This document shows, piece by piece, positions 8,215-42,622 of a stretch of 42,622 nt of DNA. The stretch covers positions 1 to 42,622 of the forward strand of contig CALITO010000011.1 in the NCBI GenBank assembly GCA_938041455.1, given 5' to 3'. Position 1 is the first letter of the stretch, and every line of letters starts with the position of its first letter. The notes beneath the pieces were generated by a model that saw nothing but the letters and a program-made list of their open reading frames with translations, was not told where the DNA came from and made no database searches. The stretch comes from an uncultured bacterium. Its GTDB lineage: Bacteria; Armatimonadota; JACIXR01. Both the position numbers and the translations under genes were made by a program.

Positions 8215-11200
8215 TCACCTCCTAAGCAAGCTGGCTTCCCTCTCGTAATGAGCCTTTACCTCCTCAGGGGAGAGGGCAAATGGGTAAAGACGAACCTCGT
8301 CAAGATAGCCGTTGAACATATAAACCTTATCCCAAATCTCGTAGCGCCCCAGGTAGAGTGGGGCGCCGCTGGGGCGAAGTTGCCCCAGCGCCTCCTTACT
8401 TGTAATCACCTCACCATTCACATATAAGTGGAACCTCACCCCATCATAGGTGGCACAGATGTATACCCACTCATTAAGGGGGGGACGATACTGGGAATCG
8501 AAGTCGTCAACTCCCGCTATGCTGAAGCGTATTTGTCCTCCCAAAATTTGAAGAAAATAGCCGTTCTCTCTCCAGATTCCATGCCCCACTATAACAGGCA
8601 TTCCTTCCAGGGAAAGAACTTTCATCCATAACTCTATACTAAGTTCAAATTGGGGATTGAATTCTTCCCTAAATGGGTAAAAAACCCAGTTATCACCAGA
8701 AAGATAGAGGGAATTACCTATACCCTCACTGGCGAAGAGGGGAGGAGTATTAGCACTTCCTTCTCCCCCTGGTTCTGCCTTTAAGTTATCCTCAAATGAG
8801 AGAGCGAAGAAGGGAGTGGTGGGCAAGGGCAAAGGGGTAATGGTTATGGGCGGAGATGGTTCACTCATACTCCCATCGGGAGCTATGGCTCGCACCCTAT
8901 AGCGGAGGTTTCTGCCCGGCTCCCCTTTCACCCTCACCACATTTTGAGCGAAGTAATTTGGGGGGACTGCTTCAAATCCCTTTACTACCCTGAACTCTCC
9001 CTCCTCCGCAACCTCCACCATATATCCCACCACATCCGCATCAGCTCTCGCCCAAACGAGTTTAGCACCACCAGGTAGAGCCTCACCCTTCAGATCGCTG
9101 GGAGGGTGGAGGGGAGGAAATAGGCTTACTTTCACGCTTAGTTCAGCAGAACCTTTGCTCCTTCGTCCTGCCTCGTCCTCACTATATATCCTATATGTAT
9201 ATGTTTGTTTAGGTTTAATTGAAAAATCTTCATACCATATATCCCTCACACTGGCGAGCAGTTTCTCCTCCTTGCCGTCCCAAATATATATGAGATACTT
9301 GTCTATCCCTATGTCGTCCTTCCCTTCTTCCCAACTCAACCTCAAACTGTAGGCGCCCAGTTCGCCTTGAATATTTGAGGGGGGAGAAGGGGGTAGGCGA
9401 TCTGGGGGCTCTTGAATGGGTTTTGGAGGGGGAGGAAGCCAGATGCTCAGAGAAAATGGTCGGCTCGCACCCTCCTTGGGCAATGTCCATTTACCAAAGG
9501 GCGTTTTGGCTTCCAAGAACCAAACCAGCACATCACCCGTTGCGGGCGAAGGGAGGGGAAATTTAAAAGTATTGCGAACTTTCCCCCTCACAACTGCTTT
9601 TTTCCATCCCTTCTCTCCCAACAGTTTATAGTGTAGGATAATCTCTGAGGGTTCAGCACCTACCGCGAGCAAAGACAGGGAGAGCTTACTTTTTGGGGAT
9701 ATGGTGGAAGGCAGGGAAGGGATAACGAGATTTAATCCCTCGGGTTTTAGGTAGGGGAGGGGAATTTCCCTTCCCAAGATTTTCTCTATTTCTCGGAGTT
9801 TTTCTCGGAAGTCCCAAAAAGCCTTTGCGTTTATCGTCGCCAAAACGCCAAGCTCTCCCCTACTGGCTATGTTCTGGGCGTAGATTTTCAGCGCCTCAGC
9901 GAAGCGGGATATGGGGAGGATTGATAAGGCCTCCTCGGCTAACCGCTTTGCTCTTTCCTCCTCCCCCTTAAGCTGTGCCTCCCTCATTTTCATTAAAAGG
10001 GCGTTTGTGGTGATCATTGCCTCCGCGGTCTCGTGATAGAGAAGAGCCCAATCCGCCGTCCTTAGATAATAATCTACTCTTTCAGCCTCCCTAATATTTC
10101 CCTCTTCTGCCAGTCCTTCTCTCAATCTCGCTAACCTCTCCCTCAATTCCTTGAGTCTTTCTACCTTTGGGAGCTCGCCCGCGCTCCAACTGAAGCTACC
10201 ACATTCCGATTGCCCAGCTCCGCCTATCCAGCGGTAGCCGAGTTCCTGTAAGCTCCTCAATATCTGGGAGAATTCCCTCCCTTTTCTCTCACCAATGAGA
10301 CGGGAGGCATAGCGGTCGTAGAAACCCCTGAAAGTAAGATCGGGATGCCAACAAAATGAACTGAGGAAGGCACAGGTTTCCTCTATGCCCCTTGTTCGCC
10401 AGTGGATAGCGAGGATTCCCTGACATCCCTTACTCAAGGCATCCCTCATTAACTTTTCATAGCGGAGGTTCCAGGGTTGAGGAAACCATTGGTCGCCGTC
10501 GAACTCGAACCAAGGAATTGGCCACCTTTCCCTTTGAGGTGAAAGTTTACCATAAGCGGAAGCGACATCATCGGTGGGATTTATGTTGTCAAGCGCGGAG
10601 AAGATGATGTCCTTCGGCAAAATCTTGTCCATTCCGGGGAAAAAGTCGCTGAAATGTAGCCACCTATCTCCCCCCCATCCACTAACTATAAGCCTTACCT
10701 GGGGAGCAATGTTCTTCAGGAACCGGTGGGCAAGGATAGCATAGAGGCTCATCCGCACAGCCTCCGCTATTCTCTTCGGCTCTTCAAGATAGGCAAAGTG
10801 CTTTTCCCATCTTTTGTAGTAAGCCCCCGAAAAAGAGCGAAGGGAAGGGGGTTCTATGCCGTTAACCCCCATACCCTCGGGCTCCCATATCCAGATATAG
10901 TCAAGGAAGGGGTAGGTCTTTATAAGATGCCTTATCCTGGCTTTCAATCTCTCCTGTTCAAGGGGATTTGTCGGGTCACCCGAGACCTCAAAGCCAAGGC
11001 AAACCTTCATACCTTTTGATTTAGCGTAGCTCAAAGCTTCCCGAAGGAGCGATTGGGCTTTCTCTATCCCCTCCTCCCTCGTCTTATAATCAAGAGAAAC
11101 CTCCGCACCGAAATATTCCTCACAGAAATAGGCATCCGTGCCGAAGGCGAATTCGCTCGTCCGCATCGGATGGGTTCCCCAGTTGGGATGGCTTGTGTTC

Positions 11201-11907
11201 AGTAAGGGTTCCCCTCCCACTAACTTTCCTTCCCAAGGATAGGCGCAAAAAGGCTCAAAATCATAAGAGTGGAAACCGAGGAAGTTGAGCTTCTGTTTTG
11301 ATAACTGGTCTATGAAGAATATATAATCCTCGAGGTTCCAGGCGGTTGGGCTATTAAAGAAGTTATACCAGGGAAGGACGCCCCGAATTTTGAAGGCGGG
11401 TTTATAAGTTTGATGGAGTCTGGGTAATTGGAGGGTTTTTTTAGGTGGCAGGAAATCTCCAGCGAGGGTGAAGAGGGCTCCAAACCCATCCTCCAAAAGT
11501 GTATAAACACCGTAAAGAACAGCAATTGGCGATTTACCAGCCACGAGGAGAATGGTTTTACCCCCTGAACTTATAGTTTTTAAGAGGAAACCTTCTTCAG
11601 GAAGCGAGGATAGCGAAATGTCTGCCCCTTTAAGGTATTGAGAGAGAACTTGGTTGGTTTGAGGAGTGCCGAGAAGAAATATGGAGGAGAAAAGGGAAAG
11701 GTCTTTTTCCTTAATTATTGGGACATCCTCTCCAGTGAGGAGAAAAATATAACGCTTCAGTTCCTTGCTGGCGAGCTTCTCCAAAGGGGTAGCCCCATTG
11801 CCCTCGAGGATGGCGAATTCTCCCCCATATATGAAGAATGGTATGAGGAGCAAGCAGATAAACAGAAATGTTCTGCTTAGTATGTTAATCGCCCTCAAGT
11901 TCAACAA
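8215..11907 (-). CDS. Large secreted multidomain glycoside hydrolase (GH67/GH20-like) with FN3 and LamG-type domains
   Basis: A 1230-residue exported protein. In order: signal peptide (about 1-28); an alpha/beta N-terminal domain of the kind seen in GH67 and GH20 enzymes (about 29-165); a TIM-barrel-like part (about 170-560) with W-I-W-E-P-E-G and D-G-D-Q-W-F segments; a helical region (about 560-730); a beta domain; two fibronectin type III domains (about 855-1035); and a C-terminal concanavalin-like LamG domain (about 1040-1225). This suits an enzyme cutting uronic-acid or amino-sugar glycans, but I cannot assign a family. The start is uncertain: only TTG codons (11907, 11904, 11898) keep the signal peptide, and all lie inside the 3' end of atpC, so translation is probably coupled to the ATP synthase message. 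Confidence 0.75.
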   Translation of the reverse strand: MLNLRAINILSRTFLFICLLLIPFFIYGGEFAILEGNGATPLEKLASKELKRYIFLLTGEDVPIIKEKDLSLFSSIFLLGTPQTNQVLSQYLKGADISLSSLPEEGFLLKTISSGGKTILLVAGKSPIAVLYGVYTLLEDGFGALFTLAGDFLPPKKTLQLPRLHQTYKPAFKIRGVLPWYNFFNSPTAWNLEDYIFFIDQLSKQKLNFLGFHSYDFEPFCAYPWEGKLVGGEPLLNTSHPNWGTHPMRTSEFAFGTDAYFCEEYFGAEVSLDYKTREEGIEKAQSLLREALSYAKSKGMKVCLGFEVSGDPTNPLEQERLKARIRHLIKTYPFLDYIWIWEPEGMGVNGIEPPSLRSFSGAYYKRWEKHFAYLEEPKRIAEAVRMSLYAILAHRFLKNIAPQVRLIVSGWGGDRWLHFSDFFPGMDKILPKDIIFSALDNINPTDDVASAYGKLSPQRERWPIPWFEFDGDQWFPQPWNLRYEKLMRDALSKGCQGILAIHWRTRGIEETCAFLSSFCWHPDLTFRGFYDRYASRLIGERKGREFSQILRSLQELGYRWIGGAGQSECGSFSWSAGELPKVERLKELRERLARLREGLAEEGNIREAERVDYYLRTADWALLYHETAEAMITTNALLMKMREAQLKGEEERAKRLAEEALSILPISRFAEALKIYAQNIASRGELGVLATINAKAFWDFREKLREIEKILGREIPLPYLKPEGLNLVIPSLPSTISPKSKLSLSLLAVGAEPSEIILHYKLLGEKGWKKAVVRGKVRNTFKFPLPSPATGDVLVWFLEAKTPFGKWTLPKEGASRPFSLSIWLPPPPKPIQEPPDRLPPSPPSNIQGELGAYSLRLSWEEGKDDIGIDKYLIYIWDGKEEKLLASVRDIWYEDFSIKPKQTYTYRIYSEDEAGRRSKGSAELSVKVSLFPPLHPPSDLKGEALPGGAKLVWARADADVVGYMVEVAEEGEFRVVKGFEAVPPNYFAQNVVRVKGEPGRNLRYRVRAIAPDGSMSEPSPPITITPLPLPTTPFFALSFEDNLKAEPGGEGSANTPPLFASEGIGNSLYLSGDNWVFYPFREEFNPQFELSIELWMKVLSLEGMPVIVGHGIWRENGYFLQILGGQIRFSIAGVDDFDSQYRPPLNEWVYICATYDGVRFHLYVNGEVITSKEALGQLRPSGAPLYLGRYEIWDKVYMFNGYLDEVRLYPFALSPEEVKAHYEREASLLRR

Positions 11908-12141
11908 GGAGAGTCGTCCTTTCCCTTTCTACCCAGGCGAACCCCCCTTTTATATCCCATTCCTTGCTATCCCCGTTAGTTCTCGCCCTCACTTTCCCCG
12001 CCCTTAACTTCACTATGCTGGGAATGTGCCTGGCCAGCACACCCCAATATCCTTCCTCTGCTGGCATTACCAGAGAGGTAACAGTGGCTTGAAAGATGGG
12101 CTGGTTGGGTGTGAGGATGAGAAGTTCAAACCGCTTCGCCA

Positions 12142-12142
<1 letters not shown>
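11885..12142 (-). CDS. atpC: ATP synthase F1 epsilon subunit, short form
   Basis: The 85 residues cover only the N-terminal beta-sandwich of epsilon, which binds gamma and the c ring. The family hallmark is visible as M-P-A-E-E-G-Y-W-G-V-L-A-R-H. The usual C-terminal two-helix domain, about 45 residues that inhibits ATP hydrolysis in many bacteria, is absent. The ATG overlaps the atpD stop (TGATG), which fixes the start; the upstream in-frame extension is not epsilon-like. Short epsilons are known in some bacterial groups, so this need not be damage. The 3' end overlaps the start of the following glycosidase gene by up to 23 bases. Confidence 0.93.
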
Positions 12143-13548
<1,406 letters not shown>

Positions 13549-36682: not shown

Positions 36683-36707
36683 ATAATAATAAAAAGAGGT
36701 GTTTAAA

Positions 36708-39700
36708 GTGAGGAGCCTTTTGCTTCTTTGCCTTTTTGGTCTCGCTTTCGCCCCGATCTCCCTCTACGGAGAAGAGGTAAAAGGACCGGTGGAGATTTAC
36801 GGTGTTGTTTACGAAAGTGTTGATCCAGGGCCACCCTTTCAAGAAGCGCCCCGACAGTTGGAGGAGTGGGAGGCACCCCCGCCTAAGGAGAAAGAAAAAG
36901 TGGCAGGCTTCATTCCCTTCTCTCGCCCCGAACCTTTTGATATAAAACCCTGGAGCCGACCGAAATTGGGGGAGCGGATTGAAAGATTAAATTGCCAACT
37001 TGCGCAAGGAGAAATCACCTCGCTCTGGTTTGCCCTCTATGCCCTTGAGCCCCTTTCCTCCTTATCCATAACCTGCCAACCCTTGAGCAAGGGCAAGGTG
37101 CCATCAGTTGAGGTTCTGTATGCCCATTTCTGGGCGCAGAGGACGGACTGGCGAGGACGCACTTATTACATCACCCCAGAACTCCTCCTCCCAATGGGAA
37201 AGGGTTATGCCTTGTTTCCCTCCAAAGGGGGCACCCTCCTAAGGCGACCCCTTCATATCCCCCAGGGGGAAAGCAGGCTCTTCTGGCTCACTATAAGGTC
37301 AGCCGAGACCGCTCAACCTGGGGAGTACCAATTCGTCCTCAAAATACAAGCAAAGGCAAAGCGGGAGTTCACTTTACCCCTCGTCGTTCGTGTCCTCCCC
37401 TTTCGCCTCCAAAAACCAGAAGAGAAAAGATGGTTACTCTACCCCGATGTGTGGTGGTGGGGGAGCGCTCCCCAGGAAAAAGTATCGAGGATTCTTCAGG
37501 ATATAAAGGAGCACGGCATAGATGGTTTCACTGAGCTCCCCTTCGGAAAGATAGATTTGAGCAGGCTGAAGGAGGGAATCGTGGGTTATGACCCTTTCCC
37601 CCTACTCAAATTCAACGAGTTTATGAAAAAAGTAGGTATAAAGGGTCCTCATACCATAGGAGCCTGGGTGGAAGGGGAATGTGCCCAAGCCTTGGGATTA
37701 CAAGTTGACCTCAACAAGGAGTGGCCGGAGGAACTGAAAGAGGGAGTGAGAAAGGTTGCCAAGTGCGTGGTTGACACTCTTAAGCCTTATAAAATAGACT
37801 GGCTTTTTTACGGTTGGGACGAGCCTGGTCCGGATAACTTGGCTGCGCTTCAGCAATATCGCTGTTGGTATGAAGGTGGGGCTAAGACATATGTTACTTT
37901 CTTCACAAGAGAAACATACGAGGTAGCTGGACAATGGATGACTGCCCCCTGCTTCAGCGTCGGTTTAATAAATAGTCCCGAGACAGCTAAATGGGCGAGG
38001 CGTGAATGCGATAGGAGAAAGCAGAAATTCTTCTGGTATGGTTCGGGCTGTTACCTTGGTCAAGAAGGAAGGATGTTCCCCAATCGTTATCTTACCGGTT
38101 GGCTTTTTTGGAAGACTAAAGCGGACGCTCAGGTCTCATGGACACTCGTTCGCCCCCATGAGGACCCCTTCAACGACTTTGACGGAATCAAGGCCAACAA
38201 CTATGAGCCCAAGGACCAATGCATAGTGTATCCCTGGTTCCTTCGTCCTAACGAGAGCGATAGCATAGTAGACATCCTACACACCATACAGTGGGAGGCA
38301 ATAAGGGAAGGTATCAATGATTATCGTTATGCCTACACTCTAAAAAAGACGGTTGAGGAGTTGAGGAAGGTAGCAGATAGGAAAGAATTGGAAGAGCTTG
38401 CGAGGGAAGGAGAGGAGACCCTTCTGATGGTGGAGGAAAGCATCCCTTGGGGCAACGAAGTCGGTGCGAGAGGTTATTCCAATAAGGAGCTTCAAGAGGT
38501 AAGGGGAATATTGGCAAAGGAGATAGAGCGTTTAGTTTTAGCCCTTCAGGGGAAGAAGGTTTCCCCCCGGGGAAAAGTAAGGCGAGAGGTAACTCTCAAC
38601 ATTCACATTTTACCTCCAGAAATGGCGGATATATCAAGGGAGGTGCCCCTGCCCGTTCTCTCCATTCCCAAGATGGCTTCCCCTCCGAGGATAGATGGGG
38701 AAATTTCCGAGGTAGAATGGAGGGGTGCGGGCATTGCAGATATATTCTATGAGACCCAAATAGGTAAGCCGATGCCACCTCATCTCGCTACCAAAGCCTT
38801 CCTCGGCTATGATGATAACGCCCTCTATATAGGTTTCCTCTGCCGGGAGCCCGAGACCGGGAGGATCAAGGCGGAAAATTGGCAGAGGGATAGAGATGGG
38901 GTTTGGCAAGACGAAGGAGTAGAAGTTTTCCTTGCCCCTGCTGATGACCCAGCGCGTTATGCTCACTTCATAGTAAATGCAATGGGCTCAATTTACGATG
39001 AACTTGTTTTTGACACAAGTTGGAACCCCGATATAGATGTTGCTACGAGGATCGAGGTGGGGAGGTGGAATTGTGAGTTGGCTATCCCCTGGAGCGTTTT
39101 GCCCTTCGGCAAAACGCCCCACCTCCGCCTTAACCTCTGCAGAAATCACAATATCATAGGTGAGAGCGTTAATTACTGGGCTTGGTCCCCTACATTCGGC
39201 TGGTTCCACAATCCCTCTCGCTTTGGTATAGGGAAACTGACCACTGCTGAGATATTCATCACCAGCATCCTCCCTCCTATGCTCTTTGGAGAGAGCTCCG
39301 CGAAAGTGGGTCTCTATAATCGTGGCGAGGAAGGCAAAGAAGTTTTGATAAACGGTGTGAAAATTAACCTATCACCGAACGAGCAGAAGGTGGTGATGAT
39401 AAAGGTGCCGGGGGAAGTGGGGATGCACACTCATAAACTGAGGTTGAGTTGGGAGGGCGGAGAGGAAGAATGGCAATTCTCCTATGCTATACCTAAGCCA
39501 TTGAAGATTTTCTCCCCCCTAATTCTGGTGAATGAGCAAGGTTTGGCAAATTTGGCGATTGCCTTGAGCGTTAGTGAAGAAATTAAGAACAAGGGCGGGC
39601 TAATCCTGGAGACTGCTGGTAAACGATATCTCCTGCCTTTGAAGGAAGATAGGCAAACCCTTCCCCTTTACTTTCCCTCCCCAACTGAGGAAATCCACCT

Positions 39701-39902
39701 TTATATCAGGGAAGCCCCCCAGTTTCCCCTTAAAGCTCGTCTTTTTATCCCCACTTCTCCACATCATACCTCCCCTCGTCCCACCTCGCTATCTCCTCCC
39801 CTAAAGAGGGAGGGGAGGGGAAATATGTTGCTTCTTCTATTCTCTTTTTGCCCGTTATTAAATCCAAAAGCTCCTCCCCTTTCTGCCTCTGCCACCTCGT
39901 AG
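36708..39902 (+). CDS. Secreted GH123/DUF4091-like glycosidase with C-terminal CBM9-like domain
   Basis: A 1064-residue exported protein. A signal peptide starts at GTG 36708 (AAGAGGT upstream; an earlier GTG overlaps it). An N-terminal beta domain precedes a TIM barrel with W-D371-E372-P, matching the catalytic Asp-Glu pair of GH123 N-acetylgalactosaminidases and DUF4091 proteins. A CBM9-like domain follows (about 650-845, R-I-D-G-E-I-S-E-x-E-W). The last ~50 residues are Pro/Ser-rich low-complexity and are encoded by the palindromic GC-rich stretch at 39769-39818, so the tail looks like a late addition. It overlaps the opposing small gene by 158 bases. Confidence 0.8.
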   Translation: MRSLLLLCLFGLAFAPISLYGEEVKGPVEIYGVVYESVDPGPPFQEAPRQLEEWEAPPPKEKEKVAGFIPFSRPEPFDIKPWSRPKLGERIERLNCQLAQGEITSLWFALYALEPLSSLSITCQPLSKGKVPSVEVLYAHFWAQRTDWRGRTYYITPELLLPMGKGYALFPSKGGTLLRRPLHIPQGESRLFWLTIRSAETAQPGEYQFVLKIQAKAKREFTLPLVVRVLPFRLQKPEEKRWLLYPDVWWWGSAPQEKVSRILQDIKEHGIDGFTELPFGKIDLSRLKEGIVGYDPFPLLKFNEFMKKVGIKGPHTIGAWVEGECAQALGLQVDLNKEWPEELKEGVRKVAKCVVDTLKPYKIDWLFYGWDEPGPDNLAALQQYRCWYEGGAKTYVTFFTRETYEVAGQWMTAPCFSVGLINSPETAKWARRECDRRKQKFFWYGSGCYLGQEGRMFPNRYLTGWLFWKTKADAQVSWTLVRPHEDPFNDFDGIKANNYEPKDQCIVYPWFLRPNESDSIVDILHTIQWEAIREGINDYRYAYTLKKTVEELRKVADRKELEELAREGEETLLMVEESIPWGNEVGARGYSNKELQEVRGILAKEIERLVLALQGKKVSPRGKVRREVTLNIHILPPEMADISREVPLPVLSIPKMASPPRIDGEISEVEWRGAGIADIFYETQIGKPMPPHLATKAFLGYDDNALYIGFLCREPETGRIKAENWQRDRDGVWQDEGVEVFLAPADDPARYAHFIVNAMGSIYDELVFDTSWNPDIDVATRIEVGRWNCELAIPWSVLPFGKTPHLRLNLCRNHNIIGESVNYWAWSPTFGWFHNPSRFGIGKLTTAEIFITSILPPMLFGESSAKVGLYNRGEEGKEVLINGVKINLSPNEQKVVMIKVPGEVGMHTHKLRLSWEGGEEEWQFSYAIPKPLKIFSPLILVNEQGLANLAIALSVSEEIKNKGGLILETAGKRYLLPLKEDRQTLPLYFPSPTEEIHLYIREAPQFPLKARLFIPTSPHHTSPRPTSLSPPLKREGRGNMLLLLFSFCPLLNPKAPPLSASATS

Positions 39903-39984
39903 TTTTCAATATCCGTAAGGATAGATTGCCTCCTTGTTCTATAGCCGACTTCAATATCCCTACGACTTCCTCTATCTCCCTCAT
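39745..39984 (-). CDS. Small unrecognised protein, third gene of the right-edge operon
   Basis: ATG 39984 overlaps the stop of the previous gene (ATGA), so this 79-residue frame is probably translated. The first 55 residues are charged and helical (E-E-V-V-G-I-L-K-S-A-I-E-Q-G-G). The last ~24 residues (P-S-P-P-S-L-G-E-E-I-A-R-W-D-E-G-R-Y) are encoded by the palindromic element and look like a read-through tail. No family is recognised. The size and position after two odd genes fit a phage structural or accessory protein, but that is inference. The 3' part overlaps the end of the opposing glycosidase gene. Confidence 0.5.
   Translation of the reverse strand: MREIEEVVGILKSAIEQGGNLSLRILKTTRWQRQKGEELLDLITGKKRIEEATYFPSPPSLGEEIARWDEGRYDVEKWG
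39769..39818. repeat. Palindromic GC-rich element (REP-like) at a convergent junction
   Basis: CCTCCCCT at 39795-39802 and AGGGGAGG at 39811-39818 form a perfect 8-base stem with an 8-base loop, and another CCTCCCCT copy lies at 39769-39776. The element sits where two convergent genes meet and encodes their ends in both directions. No second copy was seen in the window, so interspersion is unproven. Confidence 0.45.
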
Positions 39985-41951
39985 AGCAAATCTTCTGCCT
40001 CTCCTTGCCAATCGTTGCGTTTGAAGTGAAAGATTTGAAATTTCCCTGTCCCGTCATCTTCCATATCTGTAAGTAGGGGAAGGAAAACTTCGCCTGTCCT
40101 TTTATCTATCGCAGGAAAAAGATACTGGATGGGATATTTCCCCAAACTTTTCACAGCCTTTACCCCCTCCCCTTTCCGCCAGACCATCATCTTCAAAGTT
40201 CCCCAGAGGAGAGGATGGGGATCTTGAGGATTGAGGCAGAATTCTTGTGGCACTTGAGCCCCTCTTTTTGACATTTCGGGGTAGCCTATGAGGACGGAAT
40301 AAAGGTGGGCGAGGTAGGAGTGGAAAATATATTCCCAGTAGAGGTCGTCTGGAGTAAACCAGAATAGGATGACCTCAGGCATTTCGGGACGCTGAAGGAA
40401 AGAGAGGAAGACGGCGTCCTTCCCCCATTCGCCGAGGTGCTCCTTAAGGACATCTGGCGGGGGAAGAGATACATCTAAAGCCTCTTCGCTTATCTGCGTT
40501 CCCTTATAGTCAAAGACTCGCCATTTTTTCTTCGAAGCCCACCAGTTAATCATAAGGAAGTTGCCCGAGTAGTGCCAGTTGTAGACTTGAGATGGGGAGG
40601 GATTACCGATGGGGAAAGTGGGATAAGGGGGGATGAGGGAATAGCATTGAGTAAATCGCCTGTGTTTTATTTGGGGATGAGAATGAATGTAAGCTACCCA
40701 ATACCAGGGGTCAGCCCAAAAGAGATAGGAAGGGAAGTCTTTGGGAGGGAGGCAGAGAAGATATGTGGGGTCGGGAAGCTTTCCGCCTCCCGCTGGGTAT
40801 GTCAGTTTTCGCCCAGAATAAAGGAGTATTCCCTCCCCGAGGGAGGCGTCTTTCCCCATTGCTTTGGGAAGGTAATCCATCTCGTAGATATATGCCCCGA
40901 TTTCCCCTTTAGTGGTGATGAAGGGATGGAATAGCCAGATGAAGGATGTTGAACTCATTTTGGGGATAATGGTCTCCTTTTGGAGAGTAGTTCCAAGATA
41001 CCACTTCGCCTTGTATTCCCAGATGGGCAAGTTTATGATATTGTAAATCCATCTTATCTTCTCCCCGCCAGTTTCTTTTTCTATCCGCCTCACATCCTTT
41101 AAGCTCTTTGAGATAGCCAAAAAACGCATTCCCTCGGGGGAAGGAAGGGGTATAATGTAGGGGCCGAAGAAGTCCCAGGAGCGATAGAAGAAGTTGAAGA
41201 GGATACTCTCCCCATATGCGTGCCCGATGAATTGCCCCACATAATAGACCTCTCTTTCTGTTTTATACACCACCTCCACATTTAGGAGTTTCCCAAGGGG
41301 CGAGTCCTTGATTTTCGTATCGGGGTATTCATAAAGGTAGATGTTGGTATCGTTTTTATAAGGAAGAAGGACAAGGAGGGAGGGAAGCGGATCAAGAGTA
41401 TAATGCTCCCCATAGGTGAATTCATAGCGCCAAAAAAGGTAGGGGTTGCCTATATATTCCCTTTCATCCCTCCCCAAGTTCGTTATTTTCCTCTCCCCTT
41501 GGTAGGAGTATTCGCCAGTTTTAGGATAGGTGATGAGGGTAGCCTTGGGGCCTTCGCAAACCATCTTCCCTGAGGAATTGAGCCTCCATATTTCCCTTCC
41601 TCCCTCCTCAAGGAGGTTGACCTCAACGGAGTAGCGTCCTTTGTTTCCGAATGTGTAATAGTCGTAGGGAGGCAAACCTGTATAAGGGACAACACCAAAA
41701 CGGCTATGCCAGAGTTCCGTTTCAAATTTATACTTTATGGGGTTTACCCGGGGTTCGTATGTCTCTATAGGCTCTCCAGGGTAGTGGGGATGGGGGCAGA
41801 GTGCTGTCGTAATATAGGTTTGTAGGACAAGTCCTGCTCCCTGCGAATTGGATTCAGAGCGGAAAGTAAAATACACTCCGCTCCGCTTTCCCGCCTCGTG
41901 AGCCCATTCCTCAACGAAGATATAGCGAGGTGCGTAGATGTAGTATATCAT
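39981..41951 (-). CDS. Large unrecognised aromatic-rich protein
   Basis: A 656-residue protein that I cannot place. It has no signal peptide or membrane segment, and unusually many Tyr, Trp, Phe and Pro residues (for example M-I-Y-Y-I-Y-A-P-R-Y at the start). The composition suggests an all-beta fold, as in viral structural or surface proteins. The ATG overlaps the previous stop (ATGA) and its stop overlaps the next ATG, so three genes are translated in series. A phage tail or capsid-related role is possible but not shown by any motif. Base composition is like the neighbouring genes. Confidence 0.6.
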   Translation of the reverse strand: MIYYIYAPRYIFVEEWAHEAGKRSGVYFTFRSESNSQGAGLVLQTYITTALCPHPHYPGEPIETYEPRVNPIKYKFETELWHSRFGVVPYTGLPPYDYYTFGNKGRYSVEVNLLEEGGREIWRLNSSGKMVCEGPKATLITYPKTGEYSYQGERKITNLGRDEREYIGNPYLFWRYEFTYGEHYTLDPLPSLLVLLPYKNDTNIYLYEYPDTKIKDSPLGKLLNVEVVYKTEREVYYVGQFIGHAYGESILFNFFYRSWDFFGPYIIPLPSPEGMRFLAISKSLKDVRRIEKETGGEKIRWIYNIINLPIWEYKAKWYLGTTLQKETIIPKMSSTSFIWLFHPFITTKGEIGAYIYEMDYLPKAMGKDASLGEGILLYSGRKLTYPAGGGKLPDPTYLLCLPPKDFPSYLFWADPWYWVAYIHSHPQIKHRRFTQCYSLIPPYPTFPIGNPSPSQVYNWHYSGNFLMINWWASKKKWRVFDYKGTQISEEALDVSLPPPDVLKEHLGEWGKDAVFLSFLQRPEMPEVILFWFTPDDLYWEYIFHSYLAHLYSVLIGYPEMSKRGAQVPQEFCLNPQDPHPLLWGTLKMMVWRKGEGVKAVKSLGKYPIQYLFPAIDKRTGEVFLPLLTDMEDDGTGKFQIFHFKRNDWQGEAEDLL

Positions 41952-42607
41952 ATCTCAAAGAGGAAAAGTTTCCCCAAGTTATCCACCTCCTCATCCTCTC
42001 TCTTATGGAAATCTCTCAGCCAACTGGCATAGCGGAGGAAGGTTACGAGGAGTGACTTCAACAAGTTCGTATCTTTTGAGGAGACCTCTCCCTCTTCCTC
42101 AATTATACGGCGGATTCTTCTCTCCAACTTTTCCAATATTTCATTCGTGGAGAGGAAGTGGGCAAGGACATTTTCCACGAAATCGGGTCCCTCCCTAAGA
42201 GTTATCTTCTCCAAAGATTTCTTAGAGGAGTGAGAAATGTCTAACTGGGGGTTGAAATGCTTTTGAAAATGCGTTTTGAGGTTTTTAAAAGTGATATGGC
42301 GTTCATCAAGGGAATGGGCAGCTGCGAGGACCCATTCAAGGTTTCTATTACAGGAAAGGTAATAGAGCTCATACTGCCAACGATGGGGGGAAGAGCAGAC
42401 GGGACATTTGGGGCTTGCCTTAACTGGCAAATATTTTTGCACTTCTCTAATCCTCTCCGTAGACCTTCCCTCTGAGAATTGGCAGATTTCATATCTTTTG
42501 AGGAGCGTTTCAAGGACGAGGGCAAAGATGGCGCAAATCTCGTATCTCCTCAGTTTCCGCTTATTGAGTAAGCGAGTGATTAGAGGGTATTTATCCTTAT
42601 CAATCAC
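41948..42607 (-). CDS. Zinc-finger-like protein resembling phage small terminase or DNA-binding proteins
   Basis: A 219-residue basic protein. C68-P-V-C71-S-S-P-H-R-W is followed about 40 residues later by T-F-K-N-L-K-T-H-F-Q-K-H-F, a Cys-Cys...His-His spacing found in DNA-binding small terminase-like phage proteins; I read this from memory of the pattern only. R-Y-E-I-C occurs twice, 17 residues apart (21-25 and 38-42). The C-terminal half is helical and charged. The start is GTG 42607 with AAAGGAGG six bases before it, right at the window edge. It is the first visible gene of the operon; genes further upstream may exist outside. Confidence 0.55.
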   Translation of the reverse strand: MIDKDKYPLITRLLNKRKLRRYEICAIFALVLETLLKRYEICQFSEGRSTERIREVQKYLPVKASPKCPVCSSPHRWQYELYYLSCNRNLEWVLAAAHSLDERHITFKNLKTHFQKHFNPQLDISHSSKKSLEKITLREGPDFVENVLAHFLSTNEILEKLERRIRRIIEEEGEVSSKDTNLLKSLLVTFLRYASWLRDFHKREDEEVDNLGKLFLFEI

Positions 42608-42622
42608 ATAATTCCTCCTTTT

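Follow-up and report, generated by a model that had tools for sequence, protein, structure and literature searches.

The window, a stretch of 42,622 nucleotides, is the entire contig C11 of the home genome (G000), and its right edge is only the end of that contig. Three genes, here called A, B and C, lie in series at this edge (Table 1), with an ATGA overlap at the A/B junction and, given that C starts at its ATG, at the B/C junction as well (ATATGATATAC and GCTATGAGGG), in agreement with the coupled series of the original prediction. An alternative TTG start of C at 40011 gives a protein of 88 aa and a 31-nt overlap with B. The Cys-Cys/His-His arrangement ascribed to A was found as C68-P-V-C71 and H113-x3-H117 and is conserved in all relatives. 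The neighbouring genes (DnaA, ADP-ribosylglycohydrolase, GH2, GH116-like, and CBM9) are host-like, and, within the tests made, the prediction that nothing else in the window resembles the three genes was borne out. Gene C shares 158 bp with the 3′ end of the CBM9 gene, and the final 50 residues of the CBM9 product resemble read-through of non-coding repeat sequence.

Table 1. Features of the cassette, the dispersed operons and the loci compared with them.
Feature	Sequence	Coordinates	Strand	Remarks
Gene A	Window	42607-41948	minus	GTG start, 219 aa; CxxC...HxxxH zinc-type motif, helical C-terminal half
Gene B	Window	41951-39981	minus	656 aa, aromatic-rich
Gene C	Window	39984-39745	minus	Small protein; 79 aa from the ATG at 39984
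5′ leader of A, start	Window	42608-42622	minus	Promoter element itself outside the window, on C14
CBM9 gene	Window	36699-39902	plus	1067 aa
GGTAGTCA of cassette	G000, C14	51130-51137		60 nt upstream of the GTG of A
Intergenic GGTAGTCA	G000, C3 (L080)	62921		Before gene for 213-aa secreted-type protein
Intergenic GGTAGTCA	G001, C1 (L056)	318662		Before PfkB kinase gene
Operon 1				Terminase/lysis/tail island
Operon 2				Portal
Operon 3				Capsid protease-decoration-major capsid-connector
Operon 4				649-aa tail protein
Operon 5				A-B-C cassette
Tape measure	Phage (L129)	11355-12917		
Short ORF	L023	15870-16385		
Short ORF	L035	1750-2253		
Short ORF	L037	11802-12395		
TerL-portal/portal locus	G163 (L130)			
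TerL-portal/portal locus	G040 (L131)	8327-10671		
TerL-portal/portal locus	G197 (L132)	8456-9523		
TerL-portal/portal locus	G115 (L135)	8883-11566		

Contig C11 probably continues into C14, one terminus of which exactly matches the reverse complement of the right end of C11 over 141 bases; the join is backed by the promoter motif that it restores (see below), which is also present in both sister species. The first gene past the join encodes a 1022-aa host-type protein on the opposite strand. A short match to A on C14 represents the contig overlap and not a second copy. That the two contigs overlap for 141 bp where A begins suggests a branch in the assembly graph, with strain variation at the cassette a possibility.

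The cassette occurs once per genome in all three genomes of the genus, always as A-B-C and amid host genes, and one of these copies is also found in the public record JACIXQ010000078.1; A and B are absent from the remaining 288 of the 291 genomes of the phylum. Prepilin-like proteins and the number of glycoside hydrolases might point to Armatimonadota as this phylum. Identities of 49–68% to the two other species (54–68% for gene C), together with the unchanged order, indicate that A-B-C is more than a chance arrangement. In G001 the neighbours of the cassette are a UDP-GlcNAc epimerase and an ABC transporter; those in G002 are an HD-domain protein and, on the other side, a reverse gyrase-like topoisomerase. 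The site of the cassette differs in each of the three species, so that its vertical descent rests on presence and order. An integrated prophage was rejected, as host genes lie on both sides of the cassette in the three genomes and there is no contiguous virion block, and the contig join and the sister genomes likewise rule out the edge of a prophage that had been proposed. A transposable element was also rejected, with no transposase and no convincing terminal repeats at the cassette.

Sequence searches of A, B, and C against Pfam, PHROGs, NCBIfam, and the PDB gave no convincing match. Matches to HobA (0.0013) and OS-D fell under the Pfam cut-offs, were absent in the G001 orthologues, and were attributed to chance. 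Gene A, its orthologue in G002, and the phage A described below all match PHROG 2807, a phage family of unknown function (E 2.6e-5 to 3.8e-4), though the match to A is weak and partial and hits to this profile occur in 3 of 14 control genomes as well. This was the only match bearing on the predicted small-terminase likeness of A, which it leaves unproven, and A matched no known TerS family in these searches. AlphaFold models based on two-sequence alignments were too poor for use for both A (pLDDT 47, all helical) and B (pLDDT 32).

The portal, large terminase (TerL), and capsid genes for which the original prediction had suggested a search are present in the genome, though scattered elsewhere and with none adjoining the cassette. 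At least five phage-type operons, ~17 kb in total, lie at separate places among host genes (Table 1). On the G001 contig, TerL with amidase and holin-like genes lies 45 kb from the cassette and a lone tail-like protein 11 kb from it, in each case with host genes between. TerL (68–78% identity between species) and the tail protein (64–73%) have single-copy orthologues in all three genomes, at loci separate from each other and from the cassette. The lysis genes, too, are intact and single-copy in the three bacteria. A capsid island and a lone Mu-type portal, both reached via the promoter motif, are present in all three genomes, and the protease, major capsid protein (MCP), and portal genes are single-copy and intact in each (the concatenated query in this genome search was a search aid only). 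The capsid island encodes a Mu-like protease, an HDPD decoration protein, a Phage_cap_E MCP, and a gp36-like connector. Family matches include Terminase_6N (2e-13), Portal_Mu (2e-45), Phage_cap_E (3e-29), HDPD (4e-23), and Amidase_3 (7e-35), with further Pfam and PHROG matches covering the connector and tail completion genes, and TerL keeps its nuclease residues. Integrase, repressor, and replication genes were not recognised in the islands of the three genomes, and tape-measure and gpF-like genes were not found in the host regions examined. An ORF of 167–197 aa in the host terminase islands takes the place of the 520-aa tape measure of the phage described below, and its G001 and G002 versions are alike at the C-terminal end (SLLKSLRKQLG and SLLLKSIKRKLG); speculatively, this replacement could mean a short tail.

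Several of the islands share host neighbours across species. The portal adjoins one LolA-like gene in all three, and the capsid island lies by a Fur gene in G000 and G002 and, in G000 and G001, by Wzz and a GHMP kinase. Between G001 and G002, the terminase island has a membrane protein, DppA, AspS, and HisS as common neighbours, and the tail gene a common GH2 enzyme, though in opposite relative orientation. These common sites suggest that the islands were present in the common ancestor and argue against misassembly. The HD-domain protein beside the G002 cassette is 42% identical to one beside the G001 tail gene, a hint that tail and cassette perhaps formed one unit in the past, as they do in the phage; alternatively, the two proteins may be paralogues.

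In the three species, the cassette, tail, capsid, and portal operons are all preceded by an exact copy of an 8-bp element, GGTAGTCA (12 of 12). It stands 38–62 nt ahead of the start codon, and an AT-rich −10-like box (judged by eye) follows 22–26 nt further on; the best unrelated 8-mer reaches 3 of 12 operons. The motif overlaps the called start of the G001 portal, which suggests that this start was called too early. The terminase island lacks the exact element. The examined host DNA contains 381 ORFs of 100 aa or more, and ten of them have GGTAGTCA within 110 nt upstream, of which nine are these operon heads and one is a PfkB gene. The home genome holds 31 copies in total, 26 inside ORFs and five intergenic, with four of the five intergenic copies belonging to these operons. 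The genome-wide count of a longer pattern (the motif plus AAG at a set distance) was no higher than that of a reversed control, and support for the motif therefore rests on location, not count. Intergenic copies with similar spacing also precede a gene for a secreted-type protein in G000 and a PfkB kinase gene in G001; these two genes may be extra members of a regulon or chance occurrences. A 125–126-aa protein resembling sigma-factor region 4 is encoded beside the terminase island in all three species, has no match in the phage contig, and would be a candidate activator of the motif operons. Upstream of its gene at the terminase island (L037, L023, and L035) are TTGTTGC-type repeats, a possible operator for its own regulation.

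A related temperate phage with contiguous virion genes is represented by an uncultivated contig of 25 kb in IMG/VR (IMGVR_UViG_3300035198_000132). It encodes a repressor, serine integrase, TerL, portal, gpF-like protein, protease, decoration protein, MCP, methylase, and connector, as well as a tape measure, Ig-like protein, tail completion protein, amidase, holin-like genes, and a 650-aa tail protein, followed by A and B. Phage A (184 aa) is 31% identical to gene A over 145 aa (E 2e-20, hhalign 98.8%) and is overlapped by phage B by ATGA. The contig stops after the first 196 residues of B, which are 65% identical to B of G001 and 44% identical to B of the home genome, and gene C falls outside the sequence covered. 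The order of the 650-aa tail protein, A, and B identifies A and B as genes of a phage virion module, at its tail end, and the virus-derived origin offered in the original prediction stands for these two genes. Searches of A and B against phages (tblastn) and early scans of viral contigs gave nothing; this contig, which breaks off within B and has a diverged A, was instead reached via TerL. The phage shares with the host loci TerL, protease, MCP, connector, Ig-like, amidase, holin, and tail genes and differs from them in its contiguity and in having a repressor, serine integrase, methylase, 520-aa tape measure, and gpF-like protein. No GGTAGTCA is present in the contig.

For most genes the phage is nearest to G001 (TerL, 93%; MCP, 85%; tail, 84%), for many it is closer to G001 than the other two species are, and the TerL tree places it beside G001 with moderate support. 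For the portal (60–65%) and A (about 30%), it lies outside the copies of the genus. This proximity makes gene exchange between phage and chromosome likely and tempers strictly vertical descent.

Gene A, derived from a phage, is possibly a small terminase or a tail-end assembly factor. Small terminase genes usually adjoin terL; on the phage contig, A is placed after the tail gene with terL towards the opposite end, and the two are not adjacent as read along the contig. A may still be the small terminase, since no other candidate was seen in the phage contig or in the host islands. Gene B, which in the phage follows the tail gene and A, is likely a tail-tip or fibre component.

Between G000 and G001, TerL differs at 21/11/54% of first, second, and third codon positions, and other species-pair differences are, for example, 19/12/51% for MCP, 34/19/61% for A, and 40/33/62% for B (host genes, 16–32/8–23/52–63%). 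All ORFs checked are intact in the three species, and by the codon-position pattern the genes are under purifying selection in each; their identities between species resemble those of host genes. A, B, and C diverge faster than the head genes; host-facing tail parts often evolve fast, and the rate seen for A-B-C would fit such parts.

Overall, the cassette is probably one operon of a dispersed and domesticated tailed-phage gene set, gene-transfer-agent-like, in this genus; the set looks like an undescribed gene transfer agent (GTA; a tamed virus that moves host DNA) and not the edge of a prophage. An ancient prophage broken up by chromosome rearrangement, whose pieces persist as remnants with no joint function, would agree with the existence of a contiguous temperate phage with the same genes and with a cassette position that changes from species to species. 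Such a remnant, which the original prediction had listed, fits poorly with open reading frames throughout three species in which third codon positions have diverged widely and second positions are conserved. The islands also lack integrase, repressor, and methylase yet retain virion, packaging, and lysis genes, and all 12 operons carry a promoter element that the phage contig lacks, all of which makes decay unlikely.

For the gene-transfer-agent-like system, the most likely mechanism is as follows. GGTAGTCA and the −10-like box would switch on operons 2–5 together, with the sigma-region-4-like protein encoded beside the terminase island perhaps as their regulator. The capsid island would make the head, which TerL would fill with DNA through the portal, the tail would be joined to the head, and the amidase/holin set would release the particle. 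A-B-C would supply tail-end (adsorption) parts, with gene A possibly the small terminase.

Packaged DNA is invisible from sequence and B and C have no known match, and the islands might instead encode a phage-derived particle other than a GTA, such as a phage satellite, a tail-like killing particle, or a protein-only capsid. This is quite improbable, as TerL nuclease residues, portal, capsid protease, major capsid, and decoration protein are kept, none of which a tail-only particle needs, and no replication or integration genes were seen in the islands. That A-B-C is a separate mobile or defence element acquired by both phages and bacteria, as its varying site and the faster evolution of A and B relative to the head genes might suggest, is very improbable given the single copy in every genome, the lack of a transposase, convincing terminal repeats, or target duplication, the position of A-B in the phage tail module, and a promoter signal in common with the capsid, portal, and tail operons.

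The gene-transfer-agent-like reading can be compared with the definition of GTAs, which have proteins derived from tailed phages, a fully endogenised genome often at several loci, mostly vertical inheritance with co-diversification with their hosts, and particles that carry mostly random host DNA, cannot fully package their own genome, and deliver DNA to other cells (PMC9662315). In the genus examined here, tailed-phage-derived proteins comprise TerL, portal, protease, decoration protein, MCP, connector, tail completion protein, and amidase, and at least five host-flanked loci are present in the three genomes. Mostly vertical descent would agree with the common sites and host-like divergence in the three species available, but the phage clusters with G001 for several genes. 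Packaging of the gene set as one unit appears implausible given at least five loci. The label 'gene-transfer-agent-like', and not proven GTA, is used because those parts of the definition that can be read from sequence are found in full or in part in a system known from its genes. No report of a GTA in this group was found in the open-access literature.

Across the phylum, 156 of 291 genomes (87 of 156 genera) contain a match to the portal, terminase, capsid, or tail protein, mostly to the Mu-type portal. In several other families, host genes enclose either a TerL-portal pair or a portal on its own (Table 1), with the G040 locus flanked by an NAD-dependent DNA ligase and alanine racemase. It is conceivable, though doubtful, that a dispersed GTA is an old trait of the whole phylum, of which the genus of the window would be a highly scattered form with a common promoter code.

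GTAs are known experimentally from few lineages, and the system, if true, would be one more, independent lineage. One member of the genus (G002) encodes a reverse gyrase-like protein, which suggests that its habitats are probably very hot. The promoter element is short and exact enough to list the parts of the system in any new genome. A temperate phage still exists in which these genes, A and B among them, are contiguous, and this offers before and after views of a virus dismantled and put under host control.

Among known systems, RcGTA and other Rhodogtaviriformidae are similar in having phage-derived genes in several host loci (five in Rhodobacter capsulatus) that are vertically kept (PMC9662315, PMC9638019). 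The RcGTA genes are jointly regulated (PMC9662315, PMC9638019), with the activator GafA binding near the −10/−35 region (PMC9638019), whereas joint regulation here is suggested by the motif, a short common promoter element unlike the arrangement in RcGTA. RcGTA has an HK97-like MCP, in contrast to the Phage_cap_E MCP with Mu-type portal and protease here, and the present system is, unlike RcGTA, known from genes alone. VSH-1/BhGTA of Brachyspira offers a likeness in being genus-wide, co-diversifying with its host, and having a single terL outside the structural cluster (PMC9662315), though its structural genes form one cluster of 16.3 kb, compared to at least five separate operons here.
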